DNA of 64,000 nt. Origin: Synechococcus elongatus PCC 11801. Its GTDB lineage: Bacteria > Cyanobacteriota > Cyanobacteriia > Synechococcales > Synechococcaceae. The translations under genes were made by a program, and so were the position numbers. The DNA is taken from the NCBI RefSeq assembly GCF_003846445.2, contig NZ_CP030139.2:682001-746000 (forward strand), written 5' to 3'. The notes beneath the pieces were generated by a model. It made no database searches, was not told the origin of the DNA, and saw only the letters and a list, made by a program, of their open reading frames with translations. This document shows positions 28,841-49,054 of the stretch, one piece after another (positions within the stretch are counted from its first letter, which is position 1; each line of letters begins with the position of its first letter).

Positions 28841-28887
28841 CAGCTATCGGATATCTAAATTTCACTAACTTAGATATCCGATAGCTG
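28841..28887. repeat. Perfect 18-bp inverted repeat
   Basis: CAGCTATCGGATATCTAA (28841-28858) is exactly complementary to TTAGATATCCGATAGCTG (28870-28887) across an 11-base spacer. No T-run follows on either strand, so it is not a standard intrinsic terminator. Confidence 0.93.
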
Positions 28888-29020
28888 AGAGAGTTTACTG
28901 CGCTCTTTGATCTAGTCTTTGCGATCAATCTGTATTGACAGATCGTGCTTTGGCAGAATTGGCTCAGTCAGCACTCATTAACTCGTTTGAACTGAATCAA
29001 TAGCAGCCCCACAAAGAACA

Positions 29021-29054
29021 ACTCCGAGGTCTTGCCGTGTTTCGACCTCGGAGT
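29021..29054. repeat. Perfect 11-bp inverted repeat
   Basis: ACTCCGAGGTC and GACCTCGGAGT flank a 12-base loop. On the minus strand the hairpin is followed by TTGTTCTTTGT, so it could terminate leftward transcription. On the plus strand it sits 9 bases before the Yfr1-like motif. Confidence 0.85.
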
Positions 29055-29063
29055 CATTCTGAG

Positions 29064-29077
29064 CGTTCACTCCTCAC
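29064..29077 (+). ncRNA. Yfr1-like motif, possible second Yfr1-type RNA
   Basis: CGTTCACTCCTCAC is identical to 14 bases of the Yfr1 single-stranded core at 49005-49018. It is flanked by the hairpin at 29021-29054 and by a weaker TTTAGCC/GGCTGAG stem downstream, resembling the Yfr1 layout. There is no T-run terminator, so the call is tentative. Confidence 0.25.
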
Positions 29078-29429
29078 TTGCCCTTTAGCCTAACGGCTGA
29101 GTAAAGAGCATCGATATAGTTTATGCCACTTTCTCTACTTGGCACAGATTTTCGCGGAAGGACGATCGCGGAAGCCTATGTCACTACTTTTGATTGATCA
29201 CTCTTTCGGGAAGATCTGCATCAACAGATGCCTGAGACTGGTTCTACAAGCTTGCTGGCACTTTGCAACTGCAGTCCTGCAAAAGCTTGCGCCTTACGGT
29301 CGCAACGCTCAACGTCCCGGCAGGGACATCCCCAAAAAAGAGCGATCGCCCTGTCACTACATCCAGAGGCGATCGCCATTGGTTTAGAAGTTGGTGGGAG
29401 AAACTGCCTCAGCTAAGACAAAAACCGAT

Positions 29430-29585
29430 TTACAGCAAGCCCAATTGATGCAAGATACCTTGACCCGTCAGCGCTTCGGTTAGCAAGCCAATGATCAAGC
29501 CCATCATGGCGAAGCGACCATTCCAACGCTCAGCCCGAACGCTCGTGAAGCCGTAGTTCGGGTCAAGACCTTGTTGTTCGTCCAT
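29430..29585 (-). CDS. High-light-inducible protein (Hli/Scp)
   Basis: 51-residue single-helix chlorophyll-binding protein of the thylakoid membrane. The LHC-like motif ERWNGRFAMMGLIIGLLTE carries the chlorophyll-ligand Glu and Asn. These proteins protect photosystem II and chlorophyll synthesis under light stress. ATG at 29585 gives MDEQQGLDPNYGFTSV; a longer frame from 29663 reads through the promoter and is rejected. An HLR1 box for RpaB lies about 47 bases upstream. Confidence 0.94.
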   Translation of the reverse strand: MDEQQGLDPNYGFTSVRAERWNGRFAMMGLIIGLLTEALTGQGILHQLGLL

Positions 29586-48987: not shown

Positions 48988-49054
48988 GCGGAGACAAATG
49001 TTTCCGTTCACTCCTCACACCACACTTCGCCCGGGCAGCGCTCGGGCGTTTTTT
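48988..49054 (+). ncRNA. yfr1: Yfr1 small regulatory RNA
   Basis: The guaB-trxA spacer is the usual site of Yfr1. A 5' stem GGAGAC/GTTTCC is followed by the conserved unpaired core ACTCCTCACACCACAC (49010-49025) and a terminator CGCCCG/CGGGCG with TTTTTT. TAGAAT at 48975-48980 fits a -10 box about 7 bases before the start. Yfr1 base-pairs with outer-membrane porin mRNAs in marine picocyanobacteria. The exact 5' end is inferred. Confidence 0.92.

Follow-up and report, generated by a model that had tools for sequence, protein, structure and literature searches.

This locus raises the question of why 14 bases of the small RNA Yfr1 recur at a second place in the 64-kb stretch of DNA analysed here (the window). 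The sequence-only reading had found CGTTCACTCCTCAC at 29064-29077 to be identical to positions 49005-49018 within Yfr1, and both its coordinates and its letters are right; it had also considered an exact match of this length beyond chance, in agreement with simple arithmetic (approximately 5e-4 matches expected per 64 kb). The whole 2.80-Mb genome contains two exact copies, both inside the window, and on this count a chance origin of the match was rejected. With up to three mismatches allowed, the window yields seven matches versus 5.2 expected; only the exact match thus stands out. At gathering thresholds, Rfam matched the window only at Yfr1 itself:

48988-49050, plus strand: Yfr1, the predicted pairing partner (RF01116, 61.7 bits)

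The second motif had been read as a possible Yfr1 paralog, a decoy, or a site of shared pairing logic. The covariance search with the Yfr1 model that had been proposed as a check (RF01116; 28900-29250, either strand) gave nothing at E ≤ 10, which together with the missing ACACCAC half and the evidence for a gene on the other strand speaks against the paralog. A permissive cmscan of the same 351 nt placed RF01701 (Cyano-1, which we take to be Rfam's name for the Yfr2 family) on the minus strand at 29083-29011, with 35.9 bits and an E-value of 1e-4; the two other families reported had E-values of 7.5 and 9.7. The locus is then composed as follows:

29011-29083, minus strand: Yfr2-family small RNA (Cyano-1, RF01701), approximately 73 nt, ends set by the model, found by RF01701 and by a second model, R1
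29064-29077, minus strand: mostly unpaired 5' tail GUGAGGAGUGAACG, perfectly complementary to Yfr1 49005-49018
29015-29060, minus strand: 17-bp hairpin with arms 29060-29044 and 29031-29015, 12-nt loop GAAACACGGCAA and GUC/GAC closure, uninterrupted near the loop

Yfr2 has a tail complementary to the Yfr1 motif, so reading a yfr2 gene on its plus strand gives a Yfr1-like sequence; the plus-strand look-alike is the reverse complement of Yfr2's Yfr1-pairing site. The window RNA has these 14 bases in common with Yfr1 as their reverse complement and differs from it in strand, structure and family; it is a predicted partner of Yfr1, not a homolog. The decoy and the shared pairing logic were therefore close in spirit, in that the Yfr2-type RNA encoded here is complementary to Yfr1.

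The RF01701 score of the window RNA does not reach the Rfam gathering cut-off of 41, which its ortholog in the sister species exceeds (41.1) and the second copy in its own genome narrowly misses (40.1). For this reason, a covariance model (R1) was built from 26 Yfr2s of other families (25 distinct rows), picked by eye among 90 extracted Yfr2s; the window genus (four RNAs), the picocyanobacteria, the second of the subclasses described below, and L038, L095, L127 and L130 were kept out. R1 recovers the window RNA at 29013-29083 with 54.6 bits (E 8e-9) as its sole strong match in the 64 kb; the next-best match, with 14.0 bits and an E-value of 0.59, falls on the strand opposite Yfr1, which is expected from the complementarity. 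When R1 was run on the whole genome, the window locus was found at E 3.5e-7, and two places were found at E ≤ 1 in this genome as well as in the sister genome G001; the other place in the own genome is

G000:C1:2455775-2455845: second Yfr2 copy

The homology to Yfr2 extends to the conserved 5' GUGAGGAG, predicted to be mostly unpaired (predicted unpaired probability of the tail 0.63-0.98 for 13 bases and 0.12 for the last), to the 12-nt GAAACACGG loop closed by GUC/GAC on a long hairpin (GUC-GAAACACGGCAA-GAC in the window RNA), to an upstream -10-like box, and to complementarity with Yfr1; each of the two genomes of the window genus carries two copies. The Yfr2 features given in the published description of the family (PMC2662882) agree with Cyano-1. 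The window copy differs from the family in its sub-cut-off Rfam score, in an uninterrupted stem that is peculiar to it and its sister ortholog, and in the linkage to an hli-like gene seen in the window genus.

Four agreeing lines of evidence support the minus strand. First, two wobble pairs of the minus-strand stem, one U-G and one G-U, turn into A-C mismatches on the plus strand, so that the stem runs to 17 bp on the minus versus 11 bp plus mismatches on the plus. The perfect 11-bp hairpin seen earlier exists, with plus-strand arms at 29021-29031 and 29044-29054 and a 12-nt loop at 29032-29043, but it is part of the longer minus-strand stem. Among 26 aligned Yfr2s, 14 pairs each read in the sense direction comprise 30 G-U, 0 A-C, 329 Watson-Crick and 5 other cells, counted in related sequences and hence non-independent. 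Second, in the sister ortholog one G-C pair is changed to A-U and both wobbles to Watson-Crick pairs. Third and fourth, a -10-like box precedes the RNA, and both lie within an island of conservation:

29087-29092, minus strand: -10-like hexamer TAGGCT of an inferred promoter, upstream of the RNA and identical in the sister genome
29011-29160, minus strand: conserved island, comprising the RNA and approximately 75 nt upstream, from the comparison with G001

In 65 of 85 Yfr2 loci, again related sequences (the other five of the 90 Yfr2s have no exact TGAGGAG), TGAGGAG is preceded at a distance of 8-14 nt by a TANNNT box, compared with 14.3 such loci on average and at most 25 in 200 base shuffles. 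The weaker second stem reported beside the hairpin, presumably AGCC TAAC GGCT at 29087-29098, can be located, but it falls in this putative promoter region of the minus strand. Conservation in relatives, the check asked of this locus, was found in the sister genome for the RNA and its upstream island alike: over the compared range 28861-29260, identity to G001 is 20-24 per 25-nt block within 29160-29011 and 8-14 per 25-nt block outside.

These results bear on the view that the locus is a plus-strand Yfr1 paralog or a Yfr10-like RNA sharing the Yfr1 motif. The 14 identical bases favor it, and RNAs other than Yfr1, such as Yfr10 and Syr5, are described as carriers of the motif (PMC6778093); yet the motif is in sense orientation in those RNAs and antisense at the window locus, the RF01116 search came back empty at E ≤ 10, and the minus strand accounts for the whole hairpin, the loop, the wobbles and the upstream box. 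The predicted fold is also more stable on the minus strand (z-score -4.24 for 28995-29088, versus -2.83 for the slightly different stretch 29018-29115 on the plus strand), and a plus-strand RNA of this kind is very improbable. Strand confusion of a similar sort probably entered the 2007 Yfr1 survey, where one Synechocystis BLAST match of the Yfr1 query is reported from the sll0185-slr0199 spacer (PMC2190773); Yfr2b sits directly upstream of slr0199 (PMC2662882).

The minus-strand RNA belongs to a family that is present throughout the genomes compared. RF01701 matches 53 of 59 genomes, the own genome included (E ≤ 0.01), and the remaining six (G013, G023, G032, G037, G046, G051) all match R1 with best E-values of at most 4.2e-4; the Yfr1 model RF01116 matches 57 of the 59, at one place each except for a weak second match in G018. 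A plain terminator or dispersed palindrome with a fortuitous Yfr1 match could draw on the U-rich stretch that follows the hairpin on the minus strand, but the occurrence of RF01701 or R1 matches in 59 of 59 genomes, the TGAGGAG held by 85 of 90 Yfr2s, and a conserved island that takes in tail, loop and upstream region make this explanation barely credible, and a terminator or repeat alone was rejected on the RF01701 matches across genomes and the island. A search of a plasmid collection, from which the own genome is perhaps absent, gave no match.

Among the 90 Yfr2s, two RF01701 subclasses were distinguished, one with a GUCGAAAC loop (35 RNAs in 29 genomes), the other very uniform, with GAGCGAACCA following GUGUG (42 RNAs in 40 genomes) and mismatching Yfr1 after ten bases; both occur together in 18 genomes. 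The RNAs of family f23 (L164-L166; G023, G037 and G051) score 52.7-54.4 bits with R1 and are not matched by RF01701 at E ≤ 0.01; L164 and L165 among them have GUGUGAGGAGCGAAC and a differently closed GAAACAGGGAAA loop. In all three genomes of family f13 among the 59, Yfr1 is immediately preceded on its own strand by a Yfr2-like RNA at a distance of 44-46 nt, an arrangement noted in a survey of 20 of the 57 Yfr1 loci:

L051:1501-1676 (G046): Yfr2-like RNA and Yfr1
L056:1501-1677 (G013): Yfr2-like RNA and Yfr1
L058:1386-1562 (G032): Yfr2-like RNA and Yfr1

These f13 RNAs reach 40-43 bits with R1, and the Rfam Cyano-1 model reports none there; the start downstream of Yfr1 is one that we take to be thioredoxin-like. 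Sponge and target may be co-transcribed in this family.

The stem of the window RNA departs from published Yfr2 structures. For eight Yfr2s, a bulge at position -4 from the loop was predicted "in all sequences" (Voss et al., PMC2662882); it is absent in the window Yfr2, which has at least 14 uninterrupted pairs past the three closing ones. A survey of 93 of 96 hairpins (L164 and L165, with their different loop closure, and L166 were left out) found such a run of at least 14 pairs in the window RNA and its sister ortholog only; of the others, one has four pairs past the closing three, 15 have three, and 75 have at most two. The four-pair hairpin belongs to a picocyanobacterial RNA and fits better with a bulge. 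We regard the interruption as typical of Yfr2 without being part of its definition, descent being shown by the model matches. The other Yfr2 of the same genome retains an internal loop. Two Yfr2s were predicted in S. elongatus PCC 6301, among the eight just mentioned (Voss et al. 2009, PMC2662882), with the consequence that either the published drawing differs, or one of those two is not the ortholog of the window RNA. That the genus possesses two functionally divided Yfr2s, a standard interrupted one and an uninterrupted one beside a light-stress gene with a Yfr1-pairing tail of 14 rather than 12 nt, is a speculative and rather improbable extension; if it were true, the uninterrupted copy would be a more stable, dedicated Yfr1 trap.

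The genes around the locus contribute less to its identity. The adjacent hli gene to which attention had been drawn is real and common to the sister species:

29430-29585, minus strand: hli-like gene, upstream of yfr2 on the same strand
29352-29339: terminator-like consensus match after the hli-like gene, from a consensus scan

From its sequence we take the gene at 29585-29430 to be hli-like, and Pfam assigned no family to it; the terminator-like site is one of two found versus 1.1 expected, weak by count. The gene order kinase-like (a name we likewise assume), hli-like, yfr2 is common to the window and G001, and the far side of yfr2 differs, with an MnhB-domain gene in the window and a VTT-domain gene in G001. 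As a trait of the Yfr2 family, hli linkage was rejected: the window hli-like peptide matches 2 of 32 Yfr2 loci at E ≤ 1, those of the window and the sister species, in a search that could overlook a divergent hli and in which contig ends truncated three of the 32 loci. The usual, though not universal, Yfr1 context guaB-yfr1-trxA (PMC2190773) is absent at the window locus, whose neighbors are the MnhB-domain gene and the hli-like gene. The spacer that separates the MnhB-domain gene from the Yfr2 gene contains a near-perfect palindrome, TATCGGATATCTAA...TTAGATATCCGATA (28841-28887), perhaps the end of the antiporter operon, which matched only itself among the 59 genomes.

The predicted pairing with Yfr1 is strong. 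When the 73-nt RNA is cofolded with Yfr1, the predicted gain is -20.9 kcal/mol (-20.8 for the second copy), a value that none of 1000 tail shuffles equaled (mean -7.5, best -19.3); an 86-nt version gains 17.5, compared with 1.4 for the plus strand. Full-length shuffles scored with duplexfold were as good in 197 of 500 cases; this method ignores internal structure, and the cofold control was used in its place. The Yfr1 core UCACUCCUCAC is predicted to be unpaired, and the CGU end of the 14-mer lies inside the first stem of Yfr1, which must open for full pairing. A length of 14 is long but not unique, as 8 of 86 Yfr2s share 14 or 15 bases of perfect complementarity with the Yfr1 of their own genome (the other four of the 90 are in two genomes without a Yfr1 match). 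Co-evolution of Yfr1 and Yfr2 in pairing length cannot be claimed for these 86 RNAs, since the Yfr1 motif is nearly invariant and the mean complementarity is equal within genomes (10.51 nt) and across families (10.49 nt).

Titration of Yfr1 is, by inference, the most likely function of the window RNA. Its GUGAGGAGUGAA tail would pair with the UUCACUCCUCAC motif of Yfr1, which hardly varies; opening of the last pairs in the first Yfr1 stem would lengthen the duplex to 14 bp, and the bound Yfr1 would be withdrawn from its mRNA targets, as described for Prochlorococcus, where Yfr2 counteracts Yfr1 (PMC6778093). For Prochlorococcus MED4, a Yfr2 pull-down enriched Yfr1 and Yfr10, Yfr2 relieved a Yfr1-repressed GFP reporter in Escherichia coli, and Yfr2 bound by Yfr1 was no longer cleaved by RNase E in vitro (PMC6778093); a gel shift of Yfr1 and Yfr2 is stated for Nostoc (PMC6974561). 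Possible pairing of Yfr2, Yfr4 and Yfr5 with a Yfr1-type motif had been noted in 2008 (PMC2518516), and light raises the activity of the Yfr2a promoter of Synechocystis (PMC2662882). The RNA could instead act mainly on mRNAs or on a protein, with Yfr1 pairing secondary: a targetome beyond Yfr1 is reported for MED4 (PMC6778093), protein sites have been suggested at GGA motifs and bulges (PMC2662882), and the loop is conserved as much as the tail. Against this stands a very strong predicted Yfr1 duplex that uses exactly the conserved tail, and we regard a primarily Yfr1-independent role as unlikely, if a serious candidate. The computations show the homology to Yfr2, the strand, the conservation in the sister species and a strong predicted pairing with Yfr1. 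The locus is, with high probability, a minus-strand yfr2 gene whose transcript starts near 29083, ends at its own hairpin, and would pair through its tail with Yfr1, removing it from mRNA targets.

The literature searched, supplements aside, contained no S. elongatus Yfr2 with coordinates or a functional test, and papers on transcription starts in S. elongatus PCC 7942 added nothing useful. The find is mostly ordinary, a member of the known Yfr2 family with a small structural twist in the window lineage. The correction of strand and identity matters beyond this locus: Yfr1-motif searches of raw DNA will return Yfr2 genes that lie on the other strand, and the Rfam cut-off for Cyano-1 misses real-looking members. 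The S. elongatus lineage gains a clear Yfr1-Yfr2 pair to test, and the presence of interrupted and uninterrupted Yfr2 stems in one cell provides a natural comparison.
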